Shown piece by piece: positions 8,969-24,364 of a stretch of DNA of 64,000 bases (its first letter is position 1; every line of letters begins with the position of its first letter). Source of the stretch: an uncultured Bacteroidales bacterium (lineage in GTDB: Bacteria; Bacteroidota; Bacteroidia; Bacteroidales; G3-4614). The stretch spans positions 64,822-128,821 of the forward strand of contig CASFRS010000013.1 in NCBI GenBank assembly GCA_949297125.1, in the 5' to 3' direction. The notes below the pieces were generated by a model that saw nothing but the letters and a program-made list of their open reading frames with translations, did no database searches and was not told where the DNA came from. Made by a program: the position numbers and the translations under genes.

Positions 8969-9016
8969 ACTTTCATCATAAAGTTTTGTCTTATTTACAA
9001 AACGGGGGACTAAAAT

Positions 9017-9370
9017 ATGAAAAAAAGCATATTGGACAATATCGACCGAAAAAGCGGGATGTCTGTTCCGGAAGGGTATTTCGACTCTTTGCCGGAAAAG
9101 ATAATGAAACGCCTGCCCGAAACCGAGCCGTTTGTTGCAGAGCCTGTTTCGGTTTGGGACCGCGTAAAGCCGTGGATGTACATGGCGGCGATGTTTGCCG
9201 GAATAGCCCTCATGTTCAAGGTATTCACGTGGAACTCGGATAACGGAGGCAACATGGCCGACATGAACGATGTTCCCATGGAACTTACTTCGGATGAAGC
9301 CGAAGCCCTCTTCTTCTACGACAACGTTACGGACTACTCGCTGTACGAATATATTTCGGAAAACTACTGA
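9017..9370 (+). CDS. Small single-pass membrane protein, putative anti-sigma factor
   Basis: 117 residues. A cytosolic N-terminus of about 50 residues contains SVPEGYFDSLPEKIMKRL. One transmembrane segment (about 52-70, VKPWMYMAAMFAGIALMFKVF) and an acidic extracytoplasmic tail follow. The (I/V)PEGYFD motif plus a single TM is typical of small proteins encoded directly after ECF sigma factors in Bacteroidota. No zinc-binding ASD motif (HxxxCxxC) is present, so if it restrains the sigma factor it does so by another fold. The role is inferred from position and topology only. Confidence 0.7.
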   Translation: MKKSILDNIDRKSGMSVPEGYFDSLPEKIMKRLPETEPFVAEPVSVWDRVKPWMYMAAMFAGIALMFKVFTWNSDNGGNMADMNDVPMELTSDEAEALFFYDNVTDYSLYEYISENY

Positions 9371-9386
9371 TTAAAAGATACTGATT

Positions 9387-9848
9387 ATGAAAGGACTAAA
9401 TATAACCGCATTTTTGCTCTTTTTGCTGCTTGGCATGTCCCTTGCCGACGCTGCCGCCCAAAACTGCAAAAGGGGCCCTCACGAAGATTTCCTGACAAAA
9501 CTGATAACTGAAAAAAGCCGGTATCTGCAGGATAAAATAGGATTGGAGGGGAAAACGGCAGAGGAGTTCGCCAACATCTATCGCGACATGGAAATAAAAA
9601 AATTCAAGGCTGCACACGATGTTTACAGGAAGGCCAAACAACTTCGCCGCTCGGAAACGCCGGTAAGCGATGCGGAGTATCTTAAATCGGCCGAAGAACA
9701 GGCTGCCGTTCCTGTAAAAATGGCCGAAATAGAATATCAGTTCTTTTCCGAAATAAAGGAGATCCTTTCGCCGGAAGAACTCTTCCTGTTCTACCATTGG
9801 GAGCGGCGTTTCGGAAAAGAGATGATACGGAAAACGCAAGCCAGATAA
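9387..9848 (+). CDS. Secreted Spy/CpxP-like helical protein
   Basis: 153 residues with a signal peptide (about 1-24, ending DAAAQ). The mature part is almost entirely amphipathic helix and rich in Lys/Glu: FLTKLITEKSRYLQDKIGL..., then EIKEILSPEELFLFYHWERRFGKEMI. Long charged helices with an ILSPEEL-type segment resemble Spy/CpxP-fold periplasmic chaperones or metal-stress sensors, though the LTxxQ box is degenerate. Third gene of the sigma operon, 16 bp after the putative anti-sigma gene. It would be a plausible output or sensor of that stress response. A terminator follows at once. Confidence 0.75.
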   Translation: MKGLNITAFLLFLLLGMSLADAAAQNCKRGPHEDFLTKLITEKSRYLQDKIGLEGKTAEEFANIYRDMEIKKFKAAHDVYRKAKQLRRSETPVSDAEYLKSAEEQAAVPVKMAEIEYQFFSEIKEILSPEELFLFYHWERRFGKEMIRKTQAR

Positions 9849-9849
9849 C

Positions 9850-9884
9850 AGAGAAAGGGAGGACAAAAGGTTCTCTCTTTTTTT
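9850..9884 (+). terminator. Terminator of the sigma operon
   Basis: AGAGAA (9850-9855) pairs with TTCTCT (9871-9876), followed by a run of T to 9884. The stem is short (6 bp) but the U-tract is strong, immediately after the stop at 9848. Confidence 0.6.
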
Positions 9885-9980
9885 ATTTATAAGCAAACCG
9901 GCTATCGGGCTTCCCCTACATGGGGACAGGGGAGACCGGCAGGAACTTGCCGGAAGTAAATGAACGGGGACGGAGGAGGA

Positions 9981-10179
9981 GGCTCGGCATAGTCAAATAA
10001 ATTTGCCTCTGCTCTCGCCTTTCACTAATTTGGCTCCGCCGAATACAGGATGCGGCTCGGCATAGTCAAATAAATTTGCCTCTGCTCTCGCCTTTCACTA
10101 ATTTGGCTCCGCCGAATATAGGATTCGGCTCGGCATAGTCAAATAAATTTGCCTCTGCTCTCGCCTTTCACTATATTTG
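9981..10179 (+). repeat. Tandem 73-bp promoter-bearing repeat, array 1
   Basis: Units begin GGCTCGGCAT at 9981, 10054 and 10127, an exact 73 bp period: two full copies plus a shorter terminal copy. The terminal copy ends in TATATTTG (10172-10179), while the distal copies read TAATTTGG at the same place. All copies in this array share array-specific variants (CATAGTC, TTTGCC, GGCTCCGCC). Each unit also has CAAATAAATTTG, an inverted repeat (CAAAT-AA-ATTTG) that contains the -33 TTTG. The array points at the SPOR lipoprotein gene. Confidence 0.9.
10148..10179 (+). promoter_or_regulatory. Promoter in the last unit of array 1
   Basis: TTTG at 10148-10151, 20 bp spacer, TATATTTG at 10172-10179: a near-ideal Bacteroidota housekeeping promoter about 50 bp before the lipoprotein start at 10228. 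Confidence 0.8.
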
Positions 10180-10227
10180 TTGCGGAATTGGACAATGTAA
10201 TTATTTAATATAAATTTTATTTGGATT

Positions 10228-10746
10228 ATGAGAAAGAGTTGTATTTTGGTTGTTGCCGCCGTATGCGTGGCCGTACTGTCGGGATGTAAAGCGAAAGAGA
10301 GCCTGTATAAGGCCGCCTATGATCAGGCAAAGGCCAAGGAACTTACCGACAGTTCAGTAAAAGAACCTGTTGCCGAACCTCAACCGGCAACCCCGGCAGT
10401 GGAGAGTACGGTTGCCCCGGAACCGCAAACGTCAGTAAGTACGGAAACCCCGGTTGTAAAGGTTACCAAAGAGCGCGTTACGACAATAGATGCCGATGAT
10501 GCAAGCAAACTCAAGATGTACAATGTCGTTTTGGGAAGTTTTTCAATATCGACGAATGCCAAAGGACTTAAAGAGAGCCTTGTCGCTGACGGCTACAACG
10601 CTTTTGTGGTTCAAAATGCAACCGGATGGTACAGGGTTATCGTGGCAAGTTTCGACGACAGGGAATCAGCTACTGCTTTCAGAGAGAGTATTCAACAGAG
10701 ATACGTCGGTCGATTTAATGATGCGTGGCTGCTTATAAATCAATAA
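10228..10746 (+). CDS. SPOR-domain lipoprotein
   Basis: 172 residues. Lipoprotein signal peptide with lipobox LSGC (Cys20). A low-complexity linker of Pro, Glu, Thr and Val (about residues 43-85) follows, then a C-terminal SPOR-like domain (about 95-170: YNVVLGSFSISTNAKGLKES, GWYRVIVASFDDRESATAFRE). SPOR domains bind denuded septal peptidoglycan, so a cell-envelope or division role is likely; the exact partner is unknown. Expressed from the 73-bp repeat promoter. No neighbour is close enough to share its transcript. Confidence 0.88.
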   Translation: MRKSCILVVAAVCVAVLSGCKAKESLYKAAYDQAKAKELTDSSVKEPVAEPQPATPAVESTVAPEPQTSVSTETPVVKVTKERVTTIDADDASKLKMYNVVLGSFSISTNAKGLKESLVADGYNAFVVQNATGWYRVIVASFDDRESATAFRESIQQRYVGRFNDAWLLINQ

Positions 10747-10775
10747 TAATCGACTATTGACATACGATATACGGG

Positions 10776-10815
10776 GCCGAAAGTGAAACGGATTTTTTCC
10801 TTATCACTTTTCGGC
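10776..10815 (+). terminator. Imperfect hairpin after the SPOR gene
   Basis: GCCGAAAGTGA (10776-10786) pairs with TCACTTTTCGGC (10804-10815), with one bulged base, 30 nt after the stop and followed by a weak T-rich stretch. The rest of 10816-11042 is AT-rich with no recognisable gene. Confidence 0.45.
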
Positions 10816-11042
10816 TTCGTCTTTATAAACTCATGATGGTTCCGTATAACTCTTTCATGGAATAAATGTGTCTTATGATTGTTTCGGGATGTCGGCCTAT
10901 AGATTTTTATCTTATCTTTACGGTGCGAAAAACTATATATGATATAGAGTTGCGTTTCCTTAATGCGATTTATTCATAATTTATAAACTAAAAAAGGATA
11001 CTGTAATTTCTGCAATTATCTATTGAAACTTATTATACTGCT

Positions 11043-12098
11043 ATGACAGACAAACCTATTGATGTATCAATAATTATTCCTGTTTACAATACAGAAAAAT
11101 ATTTAGCCATGTGTCTTGAAAGCGTTACGGCACAAGAGGGCTATATTGAAATAATATTGATAAATGACGGTTCAAATGATAGAAGTCCTGAAATTTGCAG
11201 AGAGTTTAATAAAAAAGACAACCGAATAATTGTTATAGATCAACAAAATTCAGGTGTTTCAACTGCACGCAACAAAGGCATTGAATGTGCCCGTGGGAAA
11301 TATATAATGTTTGTTGACAGCGATGATACAATAGATAAATGTATGATTAGCGAGTTAATGGTTTTGGCTAAAAACAACGATTTCCCCGATTTGATTTTCA
11401 GTGGATTTGTACGTTCTAGTCGTCAAAACAAAATAAACACATCCCAAATAAGTAAAACTGGACTATTCTCTGGGAACAAAATGTATGAATTTTTATCAGA
11501 AATAGAAATTGTTCTTTTAAGTTCACCATGGTGTAAACTATTTAAAAGATCTATAATCGAAAATTTTATGGTAAGGTTTGATACAACCATAAAATTACAA
11601 GAGGATCTAAAATTCAATTATGATTTTTTAGATCATGCAAAGAACATATATGTATCTGACAAGATTTATTACACATATAATGTAAATCCAGGAGGTTCTG
11701 CAAATTTTAAAGGAGATATATTTATCAATAATGCTTGTGCGTTAATAAAAACAGAAGATGCATTTTGGGCAAAAAGAGACCCTTCAGTAAGAAGAAAAAG
11801 TATATTAGAAGACAGGGCTTTCAACGCATTATTTGGAATATATTCAATCTATCGCATTCCACAAAAGAAAGAAAATAACAATATAAAATTGAGAGAAAGA
11901 ATAATATGGTTAAAAAAATATATAAATTTTGCCGAGCAAAATATCCCTAGCTGGACTAAATATTTTAAAAGTGGTATTCCCAAAATACTTGCAGTTTTTA
12001 TCAAAAGAAGAATGTACTACACAATAGATGCGATACTTTTATTTCTATTTAAAATATCACATATAAAAGAGAAGCAAGTTTCTTCTGAAAATTTTTAG
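11043..12098 (+). CDS. Glycosyltransferase family 2 protein, AT-rich orphan
   Basis: 351 residues. GT-A fold N-terminus: SIIIPVYNTEKYLAMCLESV, then ILINDGSNDRSPEI, SGVSTARNKGIECARG and the metal-binding MFVDSDDTID. The C-terminal half (LKEDLKFNYDFL-like, YYTYNVNPGGS) is typical of capsule or O-antigen glycosyltransferases using nucleotide sugars at the inner membrane. By eye its base composition is near 30% GC, far below the flanking genes, and it has no polysaccharide-locus neighbours. This is good evidence of horizontal acquisition. Donor and acceptor sugars cannot be told. Confidence 0.92.
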   Translation: MTDKPIDVSIIIPVYNTEKYLAMCLESVTAQEGYIEIILINDGSNDRSPEICREFNKKDNRIIVIDQQNSGVSTARNKGIECARGKYIMFVDSDDTIDKCMISELMVLAKNNDFPDLIFSGFVRSSRQNKINTSQISKTGLFSGNKMYEFLSEIEIVLLSSPWCKLFKRSIIENFMVRFDTTIKLQEDLKFNYDFLDHAKNIYVSDKIYYTYNVNPGGSANFKGDIFINNACALIKTEDAFWAKRDPSVRRKSILEDRAFNALFGIYSIYRIPQKKENNNIKLRERIIWLKKYINFAEQNIPSWTKYFKSGIPKILAVFIKRRMYYTIDAILLFLFKISHIKEKQVSSENF

Positions 12099-12193
12099 AA
12101 TTATGTGATAAGATAAATTCATACTGATTACAAATAATCTGCTTACAAACATTTATTCAATTCAAACCAAGATCTTTATATTTATTTTTAAAT

Positions 12194-13483
12194 ATGGGAA
12201 CAAACTGTCTCAATATTAAGATGCTCCTCTACCAGGCTCGGGAGGCTGCCCGCCAACTGAATTTGCTCGACGAAAACAAAATAAACGAAGTGTTGAATGC
12301 CGTCGCCGACCAGGCAGAAGCCGATGCGGCTTATATTCTTGCGGAGAACGCACGCGACCTCGCGGCTATGGACAAAAGCAACCCTAAATACGACAGGCTG
12401 ATGCTGACGGAAAAAAGGATTGCCGATATTGCTGCGGATATGAGGAAGGTGGCTGCCCTCCTCTCGCCTCTCGGCAGGACCTTATGGGAAACTACACGCC
12501 CGAACGGTATGAAGATTACCAAGGTTTCTGTTCCGTTCGGTGTTATCGGCATTATTTACGAAGCAAGGCCCAATGTCAGTTTCGATGTTTTCTCGCTTTG
12601 CTTTAAGGCCGGAAGCGCATGCATCCTTAAAGGGGGCAGTGATGCGGAGAACTCGAACAAGGCTATTATCAACACTATCAACAAGGTGTTGATAAAGTTT
12701 GGAATTGACTCTTATACAGTTGTTTTACTGCCAAACGACAGGCATGTTACGGCAGAGTTGTTAACAGCTGTAGGGCTTGTGGACCTTATTATCCCGAGAG
12801 GGAGCAAGGGGCTGATTGACTTTGTAAGGGATAACGCCAAAGTGCCGGTAATAGAGACCGGCGCCGGTATCTGCCACGCTTATTTCCACTCTGCAGGCGA
12901 TTTGTGCAAGGGGCGCAGAATAGTCTTTAACGGAAAGACGCGCAGGGTTTCGGTTTGCAACACCATCGATTCGCTTGTTATAGACAGGTCGAGATTGGCA
13001 GACCTGGCCGCATTATGCGAGCCGCTGGCCGAAAAAAACGTTATTGTCTACGCGGATGAACCGTCGTACGACGCACTCCATGGAAAATATCCGGAACAGT
13101 TGCTTGAACGGGCCGATGCTTCGAGTTTCGGGACGGAATTTCTCGATTACAAGATTTCGGTAAAATGCGTAGAGAATATCGAGGGCGCCCTGGAACATAT
13201 CGCCCGCTACTCGTCGAAACACAGCGAAGCTATCATTACCGAGGACAAAAATGCGGCAGAGAGATTCCTGAAAGAGGTGGATGCCGCATGCGTCTATGCA
13301 AACGTATCGACGGCGTTTACCGACGGCGGACAGTTCGGGTTCGGTGCGGAGATAGGCATCAGCACGCAGAAGTTGCATGCAAGGGGGCCTATGGCTTTGA
13401 ATGAGATTACCAGTTATAAATATTTAATCCACGGGGACGGTCAGACAAGGGATGACAACTCCGTTCAAAAATGTTGCTTATAA
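12194..13483 (+). CDS. proA: Glutamate-5-semialdehyde dehydrogenase (gamma-glutamyl phosphate reductase)
   Basis: 429 residues, full length. Landmarks: [34 protein letters not shown], the cofactor-region [21 protein letters not shown], catalytic Cys227 in [11 protein letters not shown], and [16 protein letters not shown] near the C-terminus. It reduces gamma-glutamyl phosphate with NADPH to glutamate-5-semialdehyde in proline synthesis. proB is not in the window. The argF' gene starts 2 bp after its stop, so the two are translated together, linking proline and arginine synthesis as in other Bacteroidales. Confidence 0.96.
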
Positions 13484-13485
13484 CA

Positions 13486-14442
13486 ATGAGAAATTTTACT
13501 AACGTTAAGGACATCGGCGATTTGAACGTCGCCCTGAAAGAGGCTTTTGAGGTCAAGGCAAACCGTTTTGGCTACAAGGAACTTGGCAAGGACAAGACTT
13601 TGGTCATGATTTTCTTCAACTCGAGCCTGCGTACGAGGTTGAGCACCCAAAAAGCCGCAATGAATCTGGGAATGAACGTAATGGTTCTCGACATCAATCA
13701 GGGGGCATGGAAACTGGAAACGGAGAGAGGCGTGATAATGGACGGGGACAAGAGCGAGCATTTGCTCGAGGCTATTCCAGTAATAGGGTGCTACTGCGAT
13801 ATTATCGGCGTCCGTTCGTTTGCCCGCTTCGAGAACAAACAGGAAGATTACGAAGAGAAGATCATATCGGAATTCATACAGTATTCGGGACGCCCCGTTT
13901 TCAGCATGGAGGCCGCCACAAGGCATCCGCTCCAGAGTTTTGCCGACCTTATTACCATTGAGGAGTACAAGAAGTGCAAACGCCCGAAAGTGGTCCTTTC
14001 GTGGGCGCCGCACCCCAAAGCGCTTCCGCAGGCCGTTGCAAATTCGTTTGCAGAATGGATGAATGCAACGGATTACGATTTTGTAATTACACATCCCGAG
14101 GGGTACGAACTTGCCCCGCAGTTTGTAGGCAACGCAAAAGTCGAATACGACCAGAAGAAAGCTTTTGAAGGGGCCGATTTTATATATGCGAAAAACTGGT
14201 CGGCTTATTCCGACCCGAACTACGGGAAAGTGATAAACATGGACCGCTCGTGGACAGTGGACAGCGAGAAGATGGCCCTCACGAACAATGCGTATTTCAT
14301 GCATTGCCTTCCGGTCAGGAGGAACATGATTGTTACCGACGACGTTATCGAATCGCCGCAGTCTATCGTAATCCCGGAAGCTGCAAACCGCGAGATTTCC
14401 GCACAGGTGGTCCTGAAAAGGATTCTTGAAGGGTTAAGGTAA
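13486..14442 (+). CDS. argF': N-succinyl/N-acetylornithine carbamoyltransferase (ArgF')
   Basis: 318 residues from the ATG at 13486, 2 bp past the proA stop. The carbamoyl-phosphate loop is NSSLRTRLSTQKA (Ser46-Arg51), followed by LDINQGAWKLETERG, ATRHPLQSFADL, and HCLPVRRNMIVTDDVI, a signature of the acyl-ornithine transcarbamylases rather than classical OTCase. The specificity loop reads DGDKSEHLLEA with Ser90. In characterised enzymes Glu at the equivalent site gives acetylornithine use, and Pro (B. fragilis) or engineered Ser gives succinylornithine use. Succinylornithine is therefore the likelier substrate (inference). An earlier in-frame ATG at 13471 lies inside proA and is rejected. 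Confidence 0.94.
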   Translation: MRNFTNVKDIGDLNVALKEAFEVKANRFGYKELGKDKTLVMIFFNSSLRTRLSTQKAAMNLGMNVMVLDINQGAWKLETERGVIMDGDKSEHLLEAIPVIGCYCDIIGVRSFARFENKQEDYEEKIISEFIQYSGRPVFSMEAATRHPLQSFADLITIEEYKKCKRPKVVLSWAPHPKALPQAVANSFAEWMNATDYDFVITHPEGYELAPQFVGNAKVEYDQKKAFEGADFIYAKNWSAYSDPNYGKVINMDRSWTVDSEKMALTNNAYFMHCLPVRRNMIVTDDVIESPQSIVIPEAANREISAQVVLKRILEGLR

Positions 14443-14469
14443 CCCCGTACAACATAAGGATAACTGCAA

Positions 14470-14512
14470 AAAAGGCCCGTAAACGGCTTCAACAATCGTT
14501 TACGGGCCTTTT
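14470..14512. terminator. Strong bidirectional terminator between argF' and trxA
   Basis: AAAAGGCCCGTAAACG (14470-14485) and CGTTTACGGGCCTTTT (14497-14512) form a perfect 16-bp stem with an 11-nt loop. A on the left and T on the right serve both strands. Confidence 0.9.
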
Positions 14513-14562
14513 GCATGACGTTTCCGCCCCGGCCATGTTTCTTCCGGGGGGACGCATGTATA

Positions 14563-14877
14563 CTATATGTTGGCCTCTATGCGGGCCTTTATCTCCGCCT
14601 TTGGGGCTGCGCCCACAATCTTGTCTACAAGCTGCCCGTTCTTGAAAAACAACAGCGTAGGTACGCTGCGCACCTTGTAATCGATGCTCAACTCGGCTTC
14701 ATCGTCCACATTATACTTGCCTATTACGGCTCGCCCTTCGTACTCTTCCGCCAGTTCTTCTACCGACGGGCCTATGCTGCGGCACGGGCCGCACCATTCT
14801 GCCCACAAATCTATCACAACCAGTTTGTCTCCCGCAAGGAACTCTTTATAATTCCCGTCCGTAATTTTTAATGCCAT
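14563..14877 (-). CDS. trxA: Thioredoxin
   Basis: 104 residues, single thioredoxin fold. Active site WCGPC with Cys29 and Cys32, preceded by VVIDLWAE; the cis-Pro segment is VRSVPTLLFFKNG. No signal peptide, so it is a cytosolic disulfide reductase fed by thioredoxin reductase. It starts 81 bp after dnaE ends on the same strand and may be read through from it. It ends before the bidirectional terminator at 14470-14512. Confidence 0.96.
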   Translation of the reverse strand: MALKITDGNYKEFLAGDKLVVIDLWAEWCGPCRSIGPSVEELAEEYEGRAVIGKYNVDDEAELSIDYKVRSVPTLLFFKNGQLVDKIVGAAPKAEIKARIEANI

Positions 14878-14958
14878 AATCCAATCTTTTTATTTTGTGT
14901 TTATAGTATTCTATTTTTTCCCTGACAACACGACCGGCATCGCTTCGCCTTGACTGTT

Positions 14959-17900
14959 TCAATCGTCGGACACCTCTTCTGCAACTGCCTCCACCGGTTC
15001 TTCCTCGTTTTCTGCCGCGTCCGCCATTTTCATCTTCCCGTTTATCTTGTACGTTATACCCGGAACTCCTTTCAGTTTGTCGGCCAAAGCCTTGTTTATA
15101 TGCAGCCGCGTTTTTCTGGAAACGAGACTTACATTGTAGCCGGCGGAAGGATCTACCAGTTCAAAGTAGAGATACCCGTTCCCGCCCTTGTAATCCGAAA
15201 CCAGGTTCTTTAGCGACTTTACGAGACCTGCCGAACAGATATTCGCATCGACCGTTATGGTCAGACTTTTCAGCAACTCTTCTTCTGCCGTATCCATAAG
15301 GGCTATCCTGGAGAGGCGGAGACTTACCTTGTCGTTATATTTGTTGGTCTCAACCTTTCCGTATACCAGAAGGTGCAGACCTATCTTCCCGTACGAGGAG
15401 TACGTTACATAATCTTTTCCGAACAGGGGAACCTCGGCCACTCCCGAAAAGTCTTCCAGCGTTATTATCCCGTATGAGGACCCTTTCTTTGTCTTGCCCT
15501 CGCGGAAACCCGTTACTATTCCGCCCAACACCACGTCTTCGTTCAGGAACGACGCCATATCGGCCTGGTATTTTTTCAGCGTGGTTGTACATACGTAATC
15601 AAGCAGCAGCGAATAATCGTCCAGAGGGTGGGCGGAAAGATATATGCCTATAAGTTCCCGCTCGCGGTTCAGCCGGTCTATGTCGGACCACTCTTCCGCC
15701 TCCGGGATTCTCGGGGTGGCCACCTCAATCATGTCGCCCCCGAACAGGGAGGCCTGCTGCTGTATAAGGTCGGCCTGATAACGGTTGCCGTAACGTATAA
15801 GGATATCGAGGAAAACCTCGCCTTTCCCGGCTTCGGCGACATACTGTTCGCGCCGTATTTCGGGAAAAGCGTCGAGCGCCCCGGCCATGGCAAGATTCTC
15901 TACGTTCTTTTTGTTGCAGGCATTCAGGTTCACACGCTGGACAAAGTCGAATATCCCGGTATACGGGCCGTTCTTTTCCCGTTCTTCAACTATTGCCCGT
16001 ACCGCACTCTCTCCTACCCCTTTTACCGCTCCGAGACCGAAACGGATATTGCCTTCTTTGTTTACGGTAAACCGCAGGTTGCTTTCGTTCACATCGGGCG
16101 GGAGAACCTTTATCCCCATGGACTTGCATTCGTCCATGAATTTGGTTATTTCGCCTATATCGGATATGTTGCGGCTCAGTACGGCCGCCATGTACTCGGA
16201 CGGATAGTGTGCTTTCAGGTATGCGGTCTGGTATGCCACCCACGAATAGCACGTAGCGTGCGATTTGTTGAACGCGTAGGATGCGAACTTTTCCCAGTCG
16301 CCCCATATCTTTTCGAGCACTGCCGGGTCGTACCCGTTTTTTACCCCGCCGTCGAGGAACTTGGGCTTGAGTTCGGCCAGTTTGTCCTTGAGTTTTTTAC
16401 CCATGGCTTTCCGCAAGGCATCGGACATGCCCCGGGTAAAGCCCGCAAGCAGACGGGAGAGAAGCATCACCTGTTCCTGGTATACGGTTATGCCGTATGT
16501 ATCTTTCAGATACTTCTCCATTACCGGAATATCGTATTTTATCTCCTCTATGCCATGCTTGCGGTTTATGAACTGCGGTATATAGTCCATAGGGCCCGGG
16601 CGGTACAGGGCGTTCATGGCTATGAGGTCCTCGAACGTGGAGGGTTTCAGCTGGCGCAGGTACTGTTGCATGCCGGCCGACTCGAACTGGAACGTCCCTA
16701 CCGTCTTCCCTTCGCTGAAAAGCTTATAGGTTTTCTTGTCGTCTATGGGAATGGTATCTATATCCAAATCGATGCCGCGGGAGAGTTTTATGTTGCGGAC
16801 TGCTTCTTTTATTATGGAGAGGGTTTTCAGCCCGAGAAAGTCCATTTTTATCAATCCGGTATCCTCTATCACCGACCCTTCGTACTGCGTTACCAGCAGT
16901 TTCTCGCCGGTATCCTTGTCGTCGGCGGTGCTTACCGGAACCCAGTCGGTTATGTCGTCGCGGCAGATTATCGTACCGCAGGCGTGCACACCGGTATTGC
17001 GCACGTTGCCCTCAAGCATCTCGGCATACAGCATCGTTTCGCGAACCAGCCGGTCGGACGACTCGGCCGCCGCTTTCAACTCCGGCACCCCTTCTATACA
17101 GTTCTTTATGTTTATCTTGGGTTCTTTGCCGTTTTTTTCGGGCAGGTGCGCAGGTATCAGTTTTGCCAGACGGTCGGCTTCACTCAACGGCAGTTTTTCC
17201 ACTCGGGCCACGTCGCGTATTGCCATTTTTGCAGCCATGGTGCCGTAGGTGATTATGTGGGCGACTTTCTTGCTCCCGTACTTCTCGGTTACCCACCGCA
17301 ACACTTCGCCGCGCCCGTCATCATCGAAGTCTATGTCTATATCGGGCAGCGATATTCTGTCGGGATTGAGGAATCGCTCGAACAGCAGGTCGTACTTTAT
17401 CGGGTCGATCTGGGTTATTCCCAAACAATAGGCTACCATCGATCCGGCTGCGGAACCTCGTCCCGGCCCTACCGAGACCCCCATTTTACGGGCAGCGGCA
17501 ATGAAATCCTGCACTATAAGGAAGTAACCGGGGAATCCCATTGTCTTCATTATGTACAGTTCAAACGTCATCCGCTCCATAAGTTCCGGAGTAAGTTTGC
17601 CGTATCGGCGTTCCGCCCCGTCGAATGCGAGTTTTGCAAGATAATCGGCCTCGAGTTTTATCCTGTACAGCTTGTCGTACCCGCCCAACCGTGCTATTTT
17701 CTTTTCGGCATCCTCGCGGGAGAGAACCTCTTTCCCGTTCTCGTCGCGCGTAAATTCATCGAACAGGTCCTGTTCGGTATACCTGCTGCGATACCCTTCT
17801 TCTGTCCCGAACTCTTCGGGAATCTCGAATGTCGGCATTATCGGGGCGTGGTCTATCGAGTAAAACTCCACCTTGTCGAGTATCTCCCCCGTATTTGCAA

Positions 17901-18843
17901 GGGCTTCCGGATAATCGGCAAACAGGGCATTCATCTCTTCGGTTGTTTTGAACCACTCCTGCTTGGAATAAAGCATCCGGGTCGGATCGTCCAGATCCTT
18001 GCTCGTACTCAGACATATCAGCCTGTCGTGCGCTTCGGCGTTTTCTTCGTCTACAAAATGGACGTCGTTGGTACATATCAGTTTTATACCGTATTGCACG
18101 GCATACTCTGCAAGTTTGGCATTTACCGCCTGCTGCTGCTCGTATGTTTCATGGTTGGCACGCGGTACGGTGGCCTTGTGCCGCTGCAGTTCGAGATAGA
18201 AATCATCGCCGAATACGCTTTTGTACCACTTTACGGCTTCTTCGGCCTCCTGAAATTGTCCGTTACGGATACGCCGAGGTATTTCGCCGCCGAGACAGGC
18301 GGATGCTACTATCAGCCCTTCACGGTGCTTCAAGAGCTCTTCCCTGTCGGTCCTCGGACGAGAGTAGAAACCTTCCGTCCATGCCTTCGACACGAGTTTT
18401 ACAAGGTTGTGGTATCCTGTAAGGTTTTTTGCCAGTACAACAAGGTGGTACCCGCTTTGGTCGGGTTTCCCGTCCTTGTTGAAGAGCCGCCTGCGCGCCA
18501 CGTACATTTCGCACCCTATCACGGGTTTGAATATTTTGGCCTCCTCTTTTTTCAGTTCCGCTTGCAACTTCTCCAGTTCGGCAGACTTTTCGGCAGAATC
18601 GGGTGCATCTCCGCCCAGGCTCTCTATCTTTTTTTTCAGTTCGGATATGGCGGCTTTCGTCTTTCCGTTCTTCTTGTTTACATAATTGTAAAACTCCTTT
18701 ATGCCGAACATGTTGCCGTGATCGGTAATGGCCATGCCGCGCATACCGTCGTGCATGGCCTTATCCACAAGCGCCGGTATGGAAGCCTGTCCGTCGAGAA
18801 TGGAGTAATGCGTATGTACGTGCAAGTGTACGAATGGTTGCAT
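14959..18843 (-). CDS. dnaE: DNA polymerase III subunit alpha
   Basis: 1294 residues from the ATG at 18843. The open frame extends upstream, but the family begins at MQPFVHLHVHTHYSILDGQ. An N-terminal PHP domain (HLHVHTHYS, DHGNMFGIKEF) has an insertion rich in Lys/Glu near residues 60-90. The polymerase core has SVGPGRGSAAGSMVAY and the catalytic LPDIDIDFDDDGRGEV. The tail holds a helix-hairpin-helix, an OB-fold region (DVVLGGIVTGFREGKTKKGSSYG) and an acidic end. Main replicative polymerase. Divergent from the HAD phosphatase gene; a CAAATTTA (-7-like on the minus strand) lies at 18909-18916. Confidence 0.97.
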   Translation of the reverse strand: MQPFVHLHVHTHYSILDGQASIPALVDKAMHDGMRGMAITDHGNMFGIKEFYNYVNKKNGKTKAAISELKKKIESLGGDAPDSAEKSAELEKLQAELKKEEAKIFKPVIGCEMYVARRRLFNKDGKPDQSGYHLVVLAKNLTGYHNLVKLVSKAWTEGFYSRPRTDREELLKHREGLIVASACLGGEIPRRIRNGQFQEAEEAVKWYKSVFGDDFYLELQRHKATVPRANHETYEQQQAVNAKLAEYAVQYGIKLICTNDVHFVDEENAEAHDRLICLSTSKDLDDPTRMLYSKQEWFKTTEEMNALFADYPEALANTGEILDKVEFYSIDHAPIMPTFEIPEEFGTEEGYRSRYTEQDLFDEFTRDENGKEVLSREDAEKKIARLGGYDKLYRIKLEADYLAKLAFDGAERRYGKLTPELMERMTFELYIMKTMGFPGYFLIVQDFIAAARKMGVSVGPGRGSAAGSMVAYCLGITQIDPIKYDLLFERFLNPDRISLPDIDIDFDDDGRGEVLRWVTEKYGSKKVAHIITYGTMAAKMAIRDVARVEKLPLSEADRLAKLIPAHLPEKNGKEPKINIKNCIEGVPELKAAAESSDRLVRETMLYAEMLEGNVRNTGVHACGTIICRDDITDWVPVSTADDKDTGEKLLVTQYEGSVIEDTGLIKMDFLGLKTLSIIKEAVRNIKLSRGIDLDIDTIPIDDKKTYKLFSEGKTVGTFQFESAGMQQYLRQLKPSTFEDLIAMNALYRPGPMDYIPQFINRKHGIEEIKYDIPVMEKYLKDTYGITVYQEQVMLLSRLLAGFTRGMSDALRKAMGKKLKDKLAELKPKFLDGGVKNGYDPAVLEKIWGDWEKFASYAFNKSHATCYSWVAYQTAYLKAHYPSEYMAAVLSRNISDIGEITKFMDECKSMGIKVLPPDVNESNLRFTVNKEGNIRFGLGAVKGVGESAVRAIVEEREKNGPYTGIFDFVQRVNLNACNKKNVENLAMAGALDAFPEIRREQYVAEAGKGEVFLDILIRYGNRYQADLIQQQASLFGGDMIEVATPRIPEAEEWSDIDRLNRERELIGIYLSAHPLDDYSLLLDYVCTTTLKKYQADMASFLNEDVVLGGIVTGFREGKTKKGSSYGIITLEDFSGVAEVPLFGKDYVTYSSYGKIGLHLLVYGKVETNKYNDKVSLRLSRIALMDTAEEELLKSLTITVDANICSAGLVKSLKNLVSDYKGGNGYLYFELVDPSAGYNVSLVSRKTRLHINKALADKLKGVPGITYKINGKMKMADAAENEEEPVEAVAEEVSDD

Positions 18844-19048
18844 GGCATCGGTTTTTTGCCGGTTATTCAAGCGGATTATTGCCGGTTGCGATTTTACCGG
18901 CGTGTCTGCAAATTTATTAAAGGTTCTATTCTTTTCCGTATGTCTCCGGCAAAAGTTATCAACAAATTGCCGGGAAGAGCATGTTTGCCGGCGGAGGTAT
19001 CGTTTTTTTTCATACATTAGCCGGACTGTTCAGCATCATTTTTACAAC

Positions 19049-19714
19049 ATGTATAAACTTGTAGTTTTCGACCTTGACGGCACTCTGCTCGATACGATAG
19101 GAGACCTGGCGTTCAGTTGCAACTTCGCCTTGGAGAAATGCGGTTTCCCGCGCCACGAGATATCGGAATATTACGGCTTTGTGGGCAACGGGATAATGAA
19201 ACTTATAGAGAGGGCGCTGCCTGAAAAGGTGCGCACGGAACAGGTCCTGTCGGAAATGAGGGAAGTCTTCGTCAGGCACTACTCAGAAAACAACACGGTA
19301 AGGACAAAACCGTATGAAGGCATACCTGCTCTTGTGCAGGACCTTCAAAATGCCGGCGCGTCCATTGCCGTAGCTTCAAACAAATACCAGGAGGCTACGG
19401 AAAAGATTGTACGGCATTTCTTCCCCGATATAAGATTCACGGATATTTTAGGCCAGCGCGAAGGGATTCCAATAAAGCCCGACCCCGGCGTCATTTACGA
19501 AATAATGAGAAACGCAGGAGTTTCGCCGCAGGAGACGATTTACGCCGGAGACTCTACGGTAGATGCTGCCACCGCAGCCCGGATAGAGGGGATAACCGGA
19601 GTTGCAGTCAGTTGGGGGTTCTGTCCGCGCGAAACTCTCGAGAAATACGGGGTAAAAACCATTGCCGAGACACCCGCGGACATATGGGACCTGTTCATTA
19701 AGAATCGCAAATAA
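19049..19714 (+). CDS. HAD-superfamily phosphatase, phosphoglycolate phosphatase-like
   Basis: 221 residues from the ATG at 19049; upstream frame is open but would overlap dnaE. HAD motif I is VVFDLDGTLLDT (nucleophile Asp and second Asp), motif II IAVASNK, motif III Lys in KPDPGVIYEI, motif IV YAGDSTVDAATA. The helical cap between motifs I and II is typical of subfamily I (Gph, PgmB). It most resembles Gph, which removes phosphate from 2-phosphoglycolate formed by DNA repair, but other small phosphate esters are possible. A hairpin and A-tract overlap its stop codon (see the minus-strand RNA candidate). Confidence 0.9.
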   Translation: MYKLVVFDLDGTLLDTIGDLAFSCNFALEKCGFPRHEISEYYGFVGNGIMKLIERALPEKVRTEQVLSEMREVFVRHYSENNTVRTKPYEGIPALVQDLQNAGASIAVASNKYQEATEKIVRHFFPDIRFTDILGQREGIPIKPDPGVIYEIMRNAGVSPQETIYAGDSTVDAATAARIEGITGVAVSWGFCPRETLEKYGVKTIAETPADIWDLFIKNRK

Positions 19715-19824
19715 AAAACAGGCGGATTTTCACAAACACGCCTGCCGAAACCAAAATATATAGAATAGTTTAACCAAAAATATATCCTGCTTGTATTCTC
19801 TGTTTTGCTGTTCCCGTTTTAAAT
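19713..19824 (-). ncRNA. Putative small RNA, copy 1
   Basis: On the minus strand a -7 box TATATTTG (19838-19831) has TTTG (19860-19857) 18 bp upstream. A transcript from about 19824 would end at a hairpin CAGGCG/CGCCTG (19719-19744) followed by T6 (19718-19713). Its 3' half, including a stretch reading TTCTATATATTTTGGTT, is nearly identical to a second element about 322 bp away. No ORF. Rfam identity is unknown to me. The element could instead only be a terminator repeat. Confidence 0.45.
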
Positions 19825-20033
19825 ACACCTCAAATATAACCTGTTTTTTTGAAAAGCAAAAATAAAGCGCTGAAATTATTACATTTCTTTGCCTGCACCT
19901 CCGCTTGCGTTATAAAATTTTAGCTTTTTTGCAGTATAGGCGACTTAGAGCCGGGAAAAATGCCACGCCGCCCCTTGCCTCGGCGAAAACAGATAAATAG
20001 GGCTTTATACATGAAACCGACAAAATGCAATTC

Positions 20034-20156
20034 AAAAAAAGCAGGCAAATTTTCACAAATCTACCTGCCGGAACCAAAATATATAGAATAATTTAACAAA
20101 GAATATTATCGATAAGGAAAACTGTTTTATTCCGATCTTTATTCTGTTCTTTGTTC
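20034..20156 (-). ncRNA. Putative small RNA, copy 2
   Basis: Same layout as copy 1. A minus-strand -7 box TATATTTG (20170-20163) has a weak -33 (TTTA at 20193-20190). The body contains AAAGAACAGAATAAAG, and the conserved 3' block (20069-20098) and a hairpin GCAGG/CCTGC (20041-20068) are followed by T7 (20040-20034). Stem bases next to the loop differ from copy 1 with partial loss of pairing, so compensatory change is not shown. The rest of 19715-20400 has no credible gene. Confidence 0.45.
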
Positions 20157-20407
20157 GTGCCCCAAATATATTGTCAGCAGGGCAACATGTAAAAGCAAAA
20201 AAGGTGAATCGTGTCCATTTATCGACCGAATACCCTCTTTTTTATCCCGAGCCGCACGCCATCCGGAATATTTTATGTTAATTTATTTTGCCGTCATGAC
20301 CTTAAATTCCGGTGGGGCAATTCCGGAAGCCGCACCGCAGGTTGCAAGTTATTCCTCTCTTTCTCTTTATACTTTACGTGAGCGTTGTAAAAACACGTTC
20401 GCCAATG

Positions 20408-20548
20408 CCGAATACAGGATGCGGCTCGGCATAGCCAAATAAATTTGTCTCTGCTCTCGCCTTTCACTAATTTGGCTTCGCCGAATACAGGATGCGGCTC
20501 GGCATAGCCAAATAAATTTGTCTCTGCTCTCGCCTTTCACTATATTTG
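20408..20548 (+). repeat. Tandem 73-bp promoter-bearing repeat, array 2
   Basis: GGCTCGGCAT recurs at 20423 and 20496 (73 bp apart); a partial copy starts near 20408 with CCGAATACAGGATGC. The distal unit has TAATTTGG, and the gene-proximal unit ends TATATTTG. Variants CATAGCC, TTTGTC and GGCTTCGCC are shared by the copies here and differ from array 1, so units within an array are homogenised. It faces the Sel1-repeat gene at 20646. An 87-codon minus-strand ORF across it is a by-product of the repeat. Confidence 0.9.
20517..20548 (+). promoter_or_regulatory. Promoter in the last unit of array 2
   Basis: TTTG at 20517-20520, 20 bp spacer, TATATTTG at 20541-20548. It would give a leader of about 90 nt before the Sel1 gene. 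Confidence 0.8.
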
Positions 20549-20645
20549 CAGTAATCGGACACTCGGCAGGCAAACATGTAAACAATGCGCCATATTTTGC
20601 AGAAAGGTCCGGATTAATCTTTTTAACCATATAAATTCTTATATC

Positions 20646-21512
20646 ATGAACAAACTTTATGTCATAGCCGGATTAGTTGTATTTTGCTTGTTTTCTACAG
20701 TTGTTTCGGCTCAAGAAGATGCTGATTTATACAGTTCGGCTAAAGAAGCTTATGCCGAAGCCGACTATGCAAAGGCTATCGGACTGGCAAAAGAGAGTGC
20801 GGCTTCAGGTTCCGACATGGCAATGGTGCTGTTGGGGGACATATACCTGGCAGGGAACGGTATTCCGCAACCCGACCCGGAGGAGGCCTTGAAATGGTAT
20901 ATGGCTGCCGACGCGCAGGACAACCATATAGCCCAGTACAAAATAGGCAGCATGTATTATGAGGGGCACGGCGTAAGCCAAAGTTTCAAGGATGCGGCCG
21001 AATGGTTTGAGAAGTCGGCGACGGGAGGATATGCCGAGGCTCAATCGGAACTGGGGCTGATGCACTTCCGCGGCAGGGGAATACCCCGCAATTACGAACT
21101 GGCGTTCAAATGGTTCTCTTTGGCCGCCGAACAAAATGACGCCCGGGCCATGTGCTATCTCGGAGGGATGTACAACAACAATAACATGGGGGTAAGGACC
21201 AATACCCTTAAAGCTGCGGAATACTGGAGAAAATCCGCCGAACTGGGTTACCCAGAAGCCGAGTTTTATCTGGGGCAGATGTATATGATAGGGAGAGGAG
21301 GCATTGCAAGGAATATAGACAGCGCAATGATATGGATAAACAAAGCCGCCGTTGACGGCAACGCCGGCGCGCAGTATTACCTGGGCGAGGTCTCGCTGAA
21401 GAAAAACGACATGGAGGCTGCAAAATCGTGGTTCGGGAAGGCTGCCGGTCAGGGACACGCCAAGGCCCAGCAGCAGCTGGACAAGATAAACGGCCCTGCC
21501 ACGGCAGAATAG
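20646..21512 (+). CDS. Exported Sel1-repeat (SLR/TPR-like) protein
   Basis: 288 residues. Signal peptide about 1-22 (VVFCLFSTVVSAQ). The rest is made of about six Sel1-like repeats of 36-40 residues, e.g. QYKIGSMYYEGHGVSQSF, AQSELGLMHFRGRGIPRNY, AEFYLGQMYMIGRGGIARN. These alpha-alpha solenoids mediate protein-protein contact; partners are unknown. It would act in the periplasm. Single gene, driven by repeat array 2 and closed by a strong terminator. Confidence 0.92.
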   Translation: MNKLYVIAGLVVFCLFSTVVSAQEDADLYSSAKEAYAEADYAKAIGLAKESAASGSDMAMVLLGDIYLAGNGIPQPDPEEALKWYMAADAQDNHIAQYKIGSMYYEGHGVSQSFKDAAEWFEKSATGGYAEAQSELGLMHFRGRGIPRNYELAFKWFSLAAEQNDARAMCYLGGMYNNNNMGVRTNTLKAAEYWRKSAELGYPEAEFYLGQMYMIGRGGIARNIDSAMIWINKAAVDGNAGAQYYLGEVSLKKNDMEAAKSWFGKAAGQGHAKAQQQLDKINGPATAE

Positions 21513-21550
21513 AGGGATAACGGTTTCTTCCGTTCCGGTATGTAAAAAGC

Positions 21551-21589
21551 AGGACCCCCGAAGTTTGTATCAGCTTCGGGGGTCCTTTT
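21551..21589 (+). terminator. Terminator of the Sel1 gene
   Basis: AGGACCCCCGAAG (21551-21563) pairs with CTTCGGGGGTCCT (21574-21586), then TTTT. The 13-bp GC-rich stem is about 40 nt after the stop; on the other strand a T5 run follows, so it may also serve the minus-strand lipoprotein gene. Confidence 0.88.
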
Positions 21590-21740
21590 ATCGAAAGTGT
21601 TCATTTCCCCTGTTTTTTTAATCGCATCTCCTTTTCATCCCTGGAGTTAAAAAGCGGTGCGGGCCGGCAATCCGTATACTGACCCGCACCGTTTTGCTCA
21701 AAGTTCCCGTACCGTCCTGGACTCCTGCCCCTCCTGCCGT

Positions 21741-22220
21741 TTATTGCCCGGAATTGGCGTCCGTATTGTCATCTTCGGGCGAATGGACGAAAAAGTCGTT
21801 ATATTCGTCAATATCGTCGAACGTCCAACTGCCATCTTGAGGCTGGTATGCCGTACCGTTTACAATTCCGGCCTTATAACTCAGTTTTACAGGGAATGCC
21901 TGCGGGACAACCTCGTCTTTCTTTACAAGACTTATAAACATGAACGGGGAGAATCCGGCATCGGCGCTGAACGAGACTTCCCATTGCGCCGAACCCAGAT
22001 AATGTTCTGTCTGCGAAACGCCAAGCCTGTCGCCATATACTATCAGGGCCGTTACGTACTGGGCGGATGCATCGTCGAGCTTAAACACATAAGTTACGGT
22101 CTTGGTGTCGGAATAGAGACCGTCGCCATCCTTGCTGCCACACGATGCGACAATGAATGCGGCAAACAATACTGCAAGATAATTGAGTATTGCTTTTTTG
22201 TCTTTTGATACAAACTTCAT
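21741..22220 (-). CDS. Hypothetical lipoprotein
   Basis: 159 residues. Basic N-terminus, hydrophobic stretch and lipobox IVASCGS (Cys27) mark a lipoprotein. The mature domain (TKTVTYVFKLDDASAQYVTALIVYGD, WEVSFSADAGFSPFMFISLV) is beta-rich and ends in an acidic tail (EDDNTDANSGQ). I do not recognise the family. It lies 104 bp downstream of the minus-strand OMP gene and may share its transcript from the array 3 promoter. The DDD/E/N-rich tail may be a flexible or calcium-binding end, but that is only a guess. Confidence 0.8.
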   Translation of the reverse strand: MKFVSKDKKAILNYLAVLFAAFIVASCGSKDGDGLYSDTKTVTYVFKLDDASAQYVTALIVYGDRLGVSQTEHYLGSAQWEVSFSADAGFSPFMFISLVKKDEVVPQAFPVKLSYKAGIVNGTAYQPQDGSWTFDDIDEYNDFFVHSPEDDNTDANSGQ

Positions 22221-22324
22221 AATCTAAAAAATTTAACCCTTTTCTGCCGGCACTCGCGAAGATTCTTACGGGTGCGTAATCCCGCTATATCCTCCCCATG
22301 CCGCAGTCTGTCATTTTCCGAATC

Positions 22325-22957
22325 CTAAAACAGATATGCTGCCGATATCTGCCATCTCTTGTCCTTTGCCGAAAGGACTTCGCCGAGACCTTCTGCCGAG
22401 AATGTGTAGGAATCCTGCAACGGTATTATATAGTTGAATCCCAACTGCAGGTGGCCAACCAGCACTACCCCCGCGCCAAGGCTTATACCGACGGTGAACT
22501 CTTTTGTATCGGCCGTTACGGGAGTATTGTTTACGGCGGTAAGATGCCCGGCTATATCGTTCATCTTTCCGAAATTGAACATGAAATCGGGACCGGCTGT
22601 AGCATATACGCCTATTATATTCTTAAACCCTATGCTCCATTTTAGGTTTACCGGTATCTCTATCATGCGCTGGATATCGGAAATTGTGGCAATTTCATCG
22701 CTGTAAATTACCTTGTTCTGCGAATACATGACAGCGCCGTCAACCTCAAAGCCGAGCGGCAGGTTCACTCCTATCATCGGGCCTATAAAGAACCCGGCCC
22801 TGTTATCAGACGAAAACATCTTTTCTACATCCCCGTTCAGAGAGAGCGATGAAAGCGTTACTCCCCCTTTAAGCCCGAACGACAATGTCTTTGCTTCCGT
22901 ACCGGATACGATAAACAACATTGCCGCCACAACCAGATACTTAAATTGCTTAATCAT
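22325..22957 (-). CDS. Outer-membrane beta-barrel protein (PorT/OmpW-like)
   Basis: 210 residues from the ATG at 22957; an upstream ATG at 22984 lies inside the promoter and is rejected. Signal peptide MIKQFKYLVVAAMLFIVSGTEA. The mature chain starts KTLSFGLKGGVTLSSLSL, then amphipathic strands (IPVNLKWSIGFKN, AGPDFMFNFGKM) and ends in ISAAYLF with terminal Phe. This fits the Bacteroidota PorT-family 8-stranded barrels. Specific role unknown. Driven by repeat array 3. Confidence 0.88.
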   Translation of the reverse strand: MIKQFKYLVVAAMLFIVSGTEAKTLSFGLKGGVTLSSLSLNGDVEKMFSSDNRAGFFIGPMIGVNLPLGFEVDGAVMYSQNKVIYSDEIATISDIQRMIEIPVNLKWSIGFKNIIGVYATAGPDFMFNFGKMNDIAGHLTAVNNTPVTADTKEFTVGISLGAGVVLVGHLQLGFNYIIPLQDSYTFSAEGLGEVLSAKDKRWQISAAYLF

Positions 22958-22981
22958 AATATAGATATTGTTTGTTTGGCA

Positions 22982-23013
22982 CAAATATAGTGAAAGGCGA
23001 GAGCAGAGACAAA
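22982..23013 (-). promoter_or_regulatory. Promoter in the first (gene-proximal) unit of array 3
   Basis: On the minus strand: TTTG at 23013-23010, 20 bp spacer, TATATTTG at 22989-22982. It precedes the OMP start at 22957 by about 25 bp, giving a very short leader. Confidence 0.8.
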
Positions 23014-23290
23014 TTTATTTGGCTATGCCGAGCCGCATCCTGTATTCGGCGAAGCCAAATTAGTGAAAGGCGAGAGCAGAGACAAATTTATTTGACTATG
23101 CCGAGCCGCATCCTGTATTCGGCGAAGCCAAATTAACGAAAGGCGAGAGCAGAGGCAAATTTATTTGACTATGCCGAGCCGCATCCTGTATTCGGCGAAG
23201 CCAAATTGGTGAAAGGCGAGAGCAGAGACAAATTTATTTGACTATGCCGAGCCGTATCCTGTATTCGGCGGAGCCAAATTAGTGAAAGGG
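22990..23290 (-). repeat. Tandem 73-bp promoter-bearing repeat, array 3
   Basis: GTGAAAGG (or variant) recurs at 22990, 23063, 23136, 23209 and 23282, exactly 73 bp apart: four full units and a fragment. Only the copy next to the OMP gene has the intact -7 box; the others have CCAAATTA (TAATTTGG on the minus strand). Copies carry a mix of the variants seen in arrays 1 and 2 (CATAGCC and CATAGTC; TTTGTC and TTTGCC). The distal end breaks off in a 13-G run. Confidence 0.92.
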
Positions 23291-23300
23291 GGGGGGGGGG
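23288..23300. repeat. Homopolymer G13 at the distal end of array 3
   Basis: Thirteen consecutive G replace the expected GGCGAGAGCAG of the fifth repeat unit; unrelated sequence follows. It may be a slippage-prone tract, an element junction, or a sequencing/assembly artefact. Confidence 0.8.
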
Positions 23301-23445
23301 TGAATAACATGCAATCTGCGATGCGGTTATTGCATTAAGAACGGAAAAAGGAGAGAACAAGACGAAGCCTTTTCGGGGTTTCCCTGTGTACCTGCTCCGC
23401 AACGGCTCTATTTTTATATTCTTCATAAAAATAATCGCCATATTG

Positions 23446-23475
23446 TTGCGCATTGAAAAAAATAGACTATCTTTG
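23446..23475 (+). promoter_or_regulatory. Promoter of tRNA-Met
   Basis: TTG at 23446-23448, 19 bp spacer, TATCTTTG at 23468-23475, 20 bp before the tRNA. Confidence 0.65.
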
Positions 23476-23494
23476 CAAGCGCAAATGAAAAGGA

Positions 23495-23568
23495 GGCGGG
23501 ATAGCTCAGTTGGTTAGAGCGTCGGATTCATAACCCGGAGGTCTCGAGTTCAATTCTCGATCCCGCTA
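23495..23568 (+). tRNA. tRNA-Met (CAT anticodon)
   Basis: Cloverleaf: acceptor GGCGGGA (23495-23501) with TCCCGCT (23561-23567); D stem GCTC/GAGC; anticodon loop TTCATAA giving CAT; T stem TCGAG/CTCGA around TTCAATT; discriminator A23568. CCA is not encoded. The first pair is G-U rather than the unpaired C1-A72 of initiators, so it is elongator Met, or less likely lysidine-modified tRNA-Ile. There is one A-C mismatch at the loop-proximal pair of the anticodon stem. Confidence 0.9.
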
Positions 23569-23581
23569 CTTGAAAGAGCAG

Positions 23582-23612
23582 CGCGCAACTTCAAACGGTT
23601 GCGCGTTTTTTT
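23582..23612 (+). terminator. Terminator of tRNA-Met
   Basis: CGCGCAAC (23582-23589) / GTTGCGCG (23598-23605) followed by T7 (23606-23612). Confidence 0.88.
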
Positions 23613-23696
23613 ATGTACGGACATTAACGAAAAATTGCCGGGACAGCCCCCTAATCGGCCAGCCCCGGCAACATATCGGTCTGTCAGGCTCGTCTG

Positions 23697-24332
23697 TCAG
23701 AAGGAAAGTCCCGCCCTGAAACCTGCGTTATTGAGACCTTCTATCCTGTAGGTCAGGACATCGGCCCTGTTGGTAGAATAATTGTAGTAAAGGGCAAGAT
23801 GCAGTCCAACCATATTATTGGAGGTAAAGTATATGGTTGTCCCTACTTCGGGACAGATATAGAACCCCCACCCGTCGTCGCTGCTCTGGAAAGCATTGTA
23901 ATACGAATAGAATTTGGTATAGGCCGGCCCGAGTTTCAGCGATATGTACGGCGTAGCTATTGCATCGGGCACAAAACGGTACCGCGCCGACACTCCGAAC
24001 GGCAACTGGAACATGGAGTGTTGCTGGTCGGTCGTTACGGATGCGTTATCGCTTAACTGAAGCGTCTGCGTCCCTACGTATTTATTGTTGGTACTGTATG
24101 CAAAAAACGCCCCTACCGCTATGTTGTCGGTGATATAATACCCGCCGTCCATTGCCATTCCCCAGCCTGCGGCCTTATCGGCAAACCCCGTATTGAGCGG
24201 GATATTGAACTGCCAGTCTATATCGAAATATCCGTGGTCTGTCAACTGCGCGCGCCCGGGCAATGGCACGGCAACTATCGCCGTTATTACTATTGCGGCA
24301 ATTTTTCCATATATACTGTTTTTTGTTTTCAT
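23697..24332 (-). CDS. Outer-membrane beta-barrel protein
   Basis: 211 residues. Signal peptide about 1-28 (AIVITAIVAVPLPGRAQ). The mature part has strands typical of small OMPs: YYITDNIAVGAFFAYSTNNKY, FGVSARYRFVPD, SLKLGPAYTKFYSYY, VGLHLALYYNYSTN, and a C-terminal FRAGLSF. It fits a generic OmpW/OprF-like porin family domain; ligand unknown. Starts 32 bp after the DUF4136 lipoprotein gene on the same strand, so the two probably form an operon. Confidence 0.85.
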   Translation of the reverse strand: MKTKNSIYGKIAAIVITAIVAVPLPGRAQLTDHGYFDIDWQFNIPLNTGFADKAAGWGMAMDGGYYITDNIAVGAFFAYSTNNKYVGTQTLQLSDNASVTTDQQHSMFQLPFGVSARYRFVPDAIATPYISLKLGPAYTKFYSYYNAFQSSDDGWGFYICPEVGTTIYFTSNNMVGLHLALYYNYSTNRADVLTYRIEGLNNAGFRAGLSF

Positions 24333-24364
24333 ATTCTATTGTTTTTATTGCGTCTGTCTTCCTT

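Follow-up and report, generated by a model that had tools for sequence, protein, structure and literature searches.

The 64,000-nt window analyzed here contains three tandem arrays of a 73-bp repeat, each located 5' of a gene that, judging by position, it is predicted to drive. The arrays, their promoter boxes and the downstream genes are as follows:

9974..10179, + strand: array 1, about 2.8 units of the 73-bp subfamily, 5' of the SPOR lipoprotein gene (Tandem Repeats Finder and direct sequence reading)
10026..10032, + strand: distal 7-nt box TAATTTG of array 1, unit -2 (sequence)
10099..10105, + strand: distal 7-nt box TAATTTG of array 1, unit -1 (sequence)
10148..10151, + strand: -33 TTTG in array 1's proximal unit, part of the apical hairpin CAAATAAATTTG (3' arm) and separated by N20 from the -7 box (sequence and spacing survey)
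10172..10179, + strand: gene-proximal -7 box TATATTTG of array 1, the right end of the last unit (sequence)
10228..10746, + strand: SPOR-domain lipoprotein, 172 aa (Pfam PF05036, E 9e-11), the gene putatively driven by array 1
20407..20548, + strand: array 2, two units of the 73-bp subfamily, 5' of the Sel1 gene (Tandem Repeats Finder and sequence)
20468..20474, + strand: distal 7-nt box TAATTTG of array 2 (sequence)
20541..20548, + strand: gene-proximal -7 box TATATTTG of array 2, with the corresponding -33 TTTG at 20517-20520 (sequence)
20646..21512, + strand: Sel1-repeat protein, 288 aa (Pfam), the gene putatively driven by array 2
22325..22957, - strand: outer-membrane beta-barrel protein, 210 aa (Pfam), the gene putatively driven by array 3
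22982..22989, - strand: gene-proximal -7 box TATATTTG of array 3, with the corresponding -33 TTTG at 23010-23013 (sequence)
22982..23290, - strand: array 3, 4.2 units of the 73-bp subfamily, 5' of the outer-membrane barrel gene, with poly-C at its distal end (Tandem Repeats Finder and sequence)

The three arrays were recovered at the places named by the first-pass annotation, both by Tandem Repeats Finder, at 9974-10179, 20407-20548 and 22982-23289, and by direct reading. As it had also claimed, the copy nearest to the gene reads TTTG-N20-TATATTTG in all three arrays and the box of each distal copy is one base shorter; two distal copies of array 3 carry CCAATTTG and GTTAATTTG as box, not TAATTTG. 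The left flanks of arrays 1 and 2 lack a 5' box. Units of the arrays share 91-100% identity over 55-73 bp with copies elsewhere in the same genome (best E 3e-32), indicating that the pattern is not due to chance. At the gene-distal end of array 3 (about 23281-23294) lies a poly-C tract, CACCCCCCCCCCCCCCTTTCAC, whose length could vary between cells.

Each unit is one imperfect, non-coding palindrome of about 63-80 bp. It runs from a left end AAGATAGG through the core CTCGGCATAG, an apical hairpin and CTCTGCNCTCG to the right end CTATCTT, and its extremities (AAGATAGG...CTATCTT) constitute terminal inverted repeats, a feature also of MITEs of DDE transposases. The sigma-ABfr promoter of Bacteroidota consists of TTTG near -33 and TAnnTTTG at -7 (PMC7366714); both boxes are also present in the units, but within a repeated palindrome instead of unique sequence. 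The -7 box is formed by the right end of the unit and the TG directly after it, and the -33 TTTG is carried by the 3' (right) arm of the apical hairpin. The two boxes are separated by 19-20 nt in 18 of 20 solo units and 19 of 26 proximal units of the genome of origin, and in 35 of 48 solo units of other genomes (20 nt in most of the latter; 19 or 20 nt in the genome of origin). Start codons follow the box at a median distance of 56 nt. Based on this anatomy, the units are predicted to act as promoters. We also considered a divergent promoter, but in the subfamilies inspected the reverse -7 box is TATYTTCG at best, which makes a start in the reverse direction unlikely. When positions 9000-25000 of the window were searched against Rfam, only a tRNA was found above its family threshold, and the units matched no known RNA family.

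The apical arms differ among lineages (CAAATAAATTTG, CAAACCTTACGGTTTG, CAAACTCGAAAACTCCGTTTTCGTTTG) and vary in length from about 12 to 27 nt, and their pairing is kept throughout. Because varying hairpin length makes a MAFFT alignment of the units unreliable for counting base pairs, we used chimera and shuffle tests. Native apical arms were found to fold better than chimeras (respectively, -6.4 and -4.7 kcal/mol on average; p 3e-5). Single-strand DNA folds of eight units gave z scores of -1.1 to -4.5 for foldback of the whole unit, some units being weak (z -1.1). At internal junctions, a second palindrome arises where one unit's right end meets the left end of its neighbor. Covariation was seen between the box bases and the left arm that follows (69 matches; shuffled mean 47.7, max 60), although it could partly reflect quasi-palindrome correction instead of selection. 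Sister palindromes with the core CTCGGCATAG-CAAATAAATTTG-CTCTGCTCTCG were observed in the congeners G001, G004 and G006 (loci L046, L048, L052, L057 and L069). The copies that we read are without a -7 box, and several end TTTTGC...GCAAAA or AAATTGC...GCAATTT. Since the core is shared without the box, it may represent a wider repeat family of which the promoters are one form.

A search with the 73-mer returned 38 matches in the 2.14-Mb genome of origin (G000). We then relied on a covariance model built from 18 diverse units, and all genome-wide counts rest on model searches: 102 matches were found in this genome at E up to 0.1, and 97 were tabulated, forming 53 clusters. Congener G003 has 53 units. 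Four subfamilies of the genome of origin were told apart by eye. Subfamily A (73 bp) has the distal box TAATTTG and the proximal box TATATTTG; subfamily B (75-76 bp) has distal TTCTTTG and proximal TATCTTTG, with a single intact internal box on contig C2; subfamily C (about 80 bp) has an intact distal TATCTTTG; and subfamily D (about 85-87 bp) has distal TACTTTG, or CAACTTTG, and proximal TATCTTTG. The one-base loss in distal boxes arose at differing box positions in A, B and D, and C is without loss. At the subfamily D loci (L223, L239, L240, L245, L219 and L218), the stem and loop inside the junction palindrome are mostly locus-specific and homogenized within the locus, e.g., CTGTTCGTGGTAACAG, which suggests that these arrays grew in place.

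A unit of 73 bp, as initially described, thus holds for the three arrays but is one spacing of several (73-76, 80-81 and 85-87 bp here; 69-96 bp elsewhere). The same description had raised the possibility that a seven-turn phasing places decoy or reservoir sites for RNA polymerase on one face of the DNA. The spacings of 69-96 bp show no common helical phase (vector length 0.23 here) and distal boxes are broken in three of the four subfamilies, and this idea is therefore not supported.

The impression that similar repeats exist in other Bacteroidales was borne out: they were found in congeners and in 26 of 198 genomes across the order, in several families. Further copies are present in named Barnesiella, Alistipes, Mediterranea, Paraprevotella, Phocaeicola, Bacteroides, Muribaculaceae and other records. 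The element seems to be mainly confined to Bacteroidales, because a sample of 296 genomes across the phylum yielded only the genome of origin and one weak match (E 5e-5) in another family of the same class; as both scans scored few candidates per genome, these figures are underestimates. Matches were also found in 13 unannotated human-gut phage records (MT836672.1 and others, H2-H14) and in a Phocaeicola massiliensis plasmid record (OY726013.1, H1). These records say nothing on mobility and may be chromosomal fragments.

We further compared proximal and distal boxes. Across all arrays, 80 of the 88 proximal boxes match TAnnTTTG, as against 60 of the 151 distal ones (Fisher p 4e-16); in the genome of origin alone the figures are 21 of 25 and 16 of 48, respectively (p 5e-5). 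Since neither the copies of one array nor the arrays of one genome are independent observations, these p values overstate the evidence. Array loci of the wide survey were found with a pattern that needs one intact box, not necessarily the proximal one, and the box caller requires TTT, so that lesions there are undercounted. Differences between distal and proximal units cluster at two places, the final G of the box (22 of 77 pairs) and one spacer base (29 of 77). A sign test at the level of loci is suggestive only (33 versus 19; p 0.07). Different lineages carry different lesions: Caccoplasma and one Bacteroidaceae genome have deletions, BRZ_AF46 has TATCTTTT, B. mediterraneensis has TATCTTTA and two other genomes have TATCTTTC. 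The first-pass claim that only the gene-proximal copy is intact therefore describes a strong tendency, with distal boxes more rarely intact than proximal ones, but not a rule: internal boxes are intact in the 80-bp subfamily of this genome and mostly intact in Barnesiella and Rikenellaceae. Among solo units, 5' outer boxes are intact in 47 of 74 cases. The proximal box is probably the gene's own and under selection, hence its integrity, and internal boxes are probably unit-unit junctions that often decay.

Orthologous sites with and without units were then compared. In G003, etfB, lrp and the amidase gene have a plain promoter of the form X-TATCTTTG-Y, and the box of dnaX is TATCTTCG. At these genes in the genome of origin, the same left flank leads to TATCTTTG, one or more units and a second TATCTTTG. 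The same occupied/empty pattern is found for panB on the gene side. In genus g105, a two-unit array of G196 that ends in CACTATATTTGTAAATCT corresponds to TTTATATTTGTAAATCT in its relative G112, and the leader is conserved, but all sequence upstream of the box differs, so that a rearrangement could also explain this site. Regarding the genes of the window, the Sel1 orthologue of G003 has a plain TTATCTTTG promoter and no unit, and the outer-membrane barrel orthologues of G001, G002 and G004-G007 have no unit. The SPOR orthologue of G003 has one unit with a different hairpin type at the same box; this -7 box is identical to the proximal box of array 1 and the downstream leader is similar. Among 19 matches in G003 to element-bearing genes of the genome of origin, 3 have a unit there, and SPOR is a fourth shared case. 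In solo units, the 5' and 3' boxes agree at their two variable bases in 30 of 41 cases (shuffled mean 19.9). At several loci, one flank is too diverged to display both junctions of a clean insertion. At the sequence level, these comparisons place the units precisely on the native -7 box, with one copy of it on either side, and the gene retains its own -7 box and leader. For a MITE of a DDE transposase, a target-site duplication of fixed length directly beside the inverted repeats would be expected; here the duplicated box overlaps the right end of the unit, and a variable loop lies between it and the left end. The possibility of a mobile promoter, raised by the first-pass annotation, gains support from the dispersed subfamilies, the presence or absence of units between congeners and the duplicated -7 boxes at their flanks.

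We propose, with a probability of about 0.62, that the arrays are copies of a short palindromic element that has spread in Bacteroidales genomes and is seated at sigma-ABfr -7 boxes (TAnnTTTG). In occupied loci the target box is present twice, once beside the native left flank and once beside the gene's leader, and the unit supplies TTTG at -33 relative to the latter copy. A unit would arrive by some copying mechanism, for which site-specific recombination and replication-based copying are candidates, and the resulting promoter would drive the gene. Repeated insertion or tandem duplication would generate the arrays. The proximal -7 box would be maintained by selection as the gene's own, whereas internal boxes would be retained as one half of a palindrome (TATCTT/AAGATA) and not as promoters, and hence would often be missing the final G or one base of the spacer. 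Selection that silences internal promoters, since transcription from them would otherwise run into the proximal one, is a possible addition that this scenario does not require.

Alternatively, promoters might have been duplicated in tandem and the distal -7 boxes actively inactivated because they interfere with the proximal start, with no mobile element involved beyond duplication. Such inactivation would fit the observations that distal lesions differ by lineage (TAATTTG, TTCTTTG, TACTTTG, TATCTTTA/T/C, TGCCTTTG) and cluster at two box positions, the remainder of the unit being conserved. However, the 80-bp subfamily, Barnesiella and Rikenellaceae retain intact internal boxes, and the 5' outer boxes of solo units are often intact although interference should disfavor these as well. 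Moreover, dispersal to about 53 loci and presence or absence between congeners demand more than local duplication. We consider this explanation unlikely.

Site-specific recombination might also account for the arrays. The CTnDOT integrase recognizes a core that resembles the -7 box. A tyrosine recombinase recognizing such a -7-like core could insert circular units at TAnnTTTG and thereby produce head-to-tail arrays, and indeed the same core brackets the units and tandem copies have one core per junction. Nevertheless, the inner arms of the junction palindromes vary with compensation, which recombination between double strands does not need, and we regard such an origin as quite improbable.

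A further possibility is that the palindrome is the operator of a transcription factor, with the repeats as extra sites and -7 boxes that matter only beside the gene. Conservation of the core CTCGGCATAG/CTCTGCNCTCG in distal units and across genera is compatible with an operator, as is the location of correctly oriented units 5' of genes: a strand-neutral ORF picker showed the nearest ORF downstream to be co-directional in 40 clusters of the genome of origin and opposite in 10. However, no function is common to these genes. Pfam hits were obtained for 27 of 30 downstream proteins tested, which include gyrase/topoisomerase IV A and B types, DnaX, GMP synthase, ketopantoate hydroxymethyltransferase, M24 peptidase, an acetolactate-synthase-type TPP enzyme, ETF, Lrp, YicC and a TsaD-family protein, among others. 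The statement that all genes driven are envelope genes is correct for the three genes of the window (SPOR lipoprotein, Sel1-repeat and outer-membrane beta-barrel proteins) but not for the family genome-wide, in which envelope proteins are a minority and most products are cytoplasmic housekeeping proteins. Given this diversity, a regulon tag for envelope genes is rejected. In addition, most congener orthologues have no unit, and apical arms that vary in sequence and length (about 12 to 27 nt) yet remain paired are a poor fit to a dimer of fixed geometry. An operator is thus a very improbable explanation. One three-unit array (L032; G000:C4:22591-22790) is situated about 405 nt 5' of an ORF encoding a papain-fold Gln_amidase toxin domain (PF15644), which is unlike the housekeeping genes at the other loci.

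A REPIN-like element mobilized by a RAYT (Y1 HUH) transposase is scarcely credible: short dispersed hairpin palindromes with local amplification are indeed typical of REPINs (PMC8049555), but the transposase domain PF01797 is absent from G000, G003 and most high-copy carriers and is commoner in element-free genomes, and RAYT mobilization is rejected for the genome of origin on this basis.

Among known systems, the nearest published case is the BrickBuilt MITE of Porphyromonas gingivalis, for which promoter activity was shown in E. coli and which was suggested to be a putative mobile promoter (PMC4596501). Both are intergenic tandem repeats of Bacteroidales. BrickBuilt is reported from P. gingivalis alone and has a 23-nt repeat flanked by a leader and a tail with small inverted ends (PMC4596501), whereas the 63-80 bp unit described here is itself the palindrome and bears the -7 box at its end. 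REPINs are nearest in shape, being dispersed short hairpin palindromes that amplify locally (PMC8049555), but here there is no RAYT and the units are predicted promoters joined to -7 boxes. The nearest concept is that of putative mobile promoters, or promoter propagation, as it is mentioned in PMC4596501 and PMC8049555. As in that concept, promoter-bearing intergenic repeats are dispersed upstream of unrelated genes; the units differ in that the palindrome end is the target's own -7 box, in forming tandem arrays and in occurring in many families of one order. They are nearly identical 5' of unrelated genes (97 units, 53 clusters) and are present or absent at orthologous sites, two features expected of putative mobile promoters. 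We found no published description of the unit in the open-access literature searched by sequence string and topic. More tentatively, and at somewhat less than even odds, the units may constitute a previously undescribed class of mobile palindromes restricted to Bacteroidales and spread by an enzyme, in which the -7 box would be both target and product of insertion and a correctly positioned promoter would be regenerated by each insertion at a gene.

If the proposed explanation is true, the promoters of housekeeping genes (guaA, panB, dnaX, gyrase/topoisomerase subunits and etfB) would have been repeatedly rebuilt in gut Bacteroidales by a small repeat seated at -7 boxes. This would provide a concrete natural instance of promoter propagation and would help to explain the divergence of promoters between close species. 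What mobilizes mobile promoters would also become a testable question, because occupied and empty sites as well as recent subfamilies can be named.
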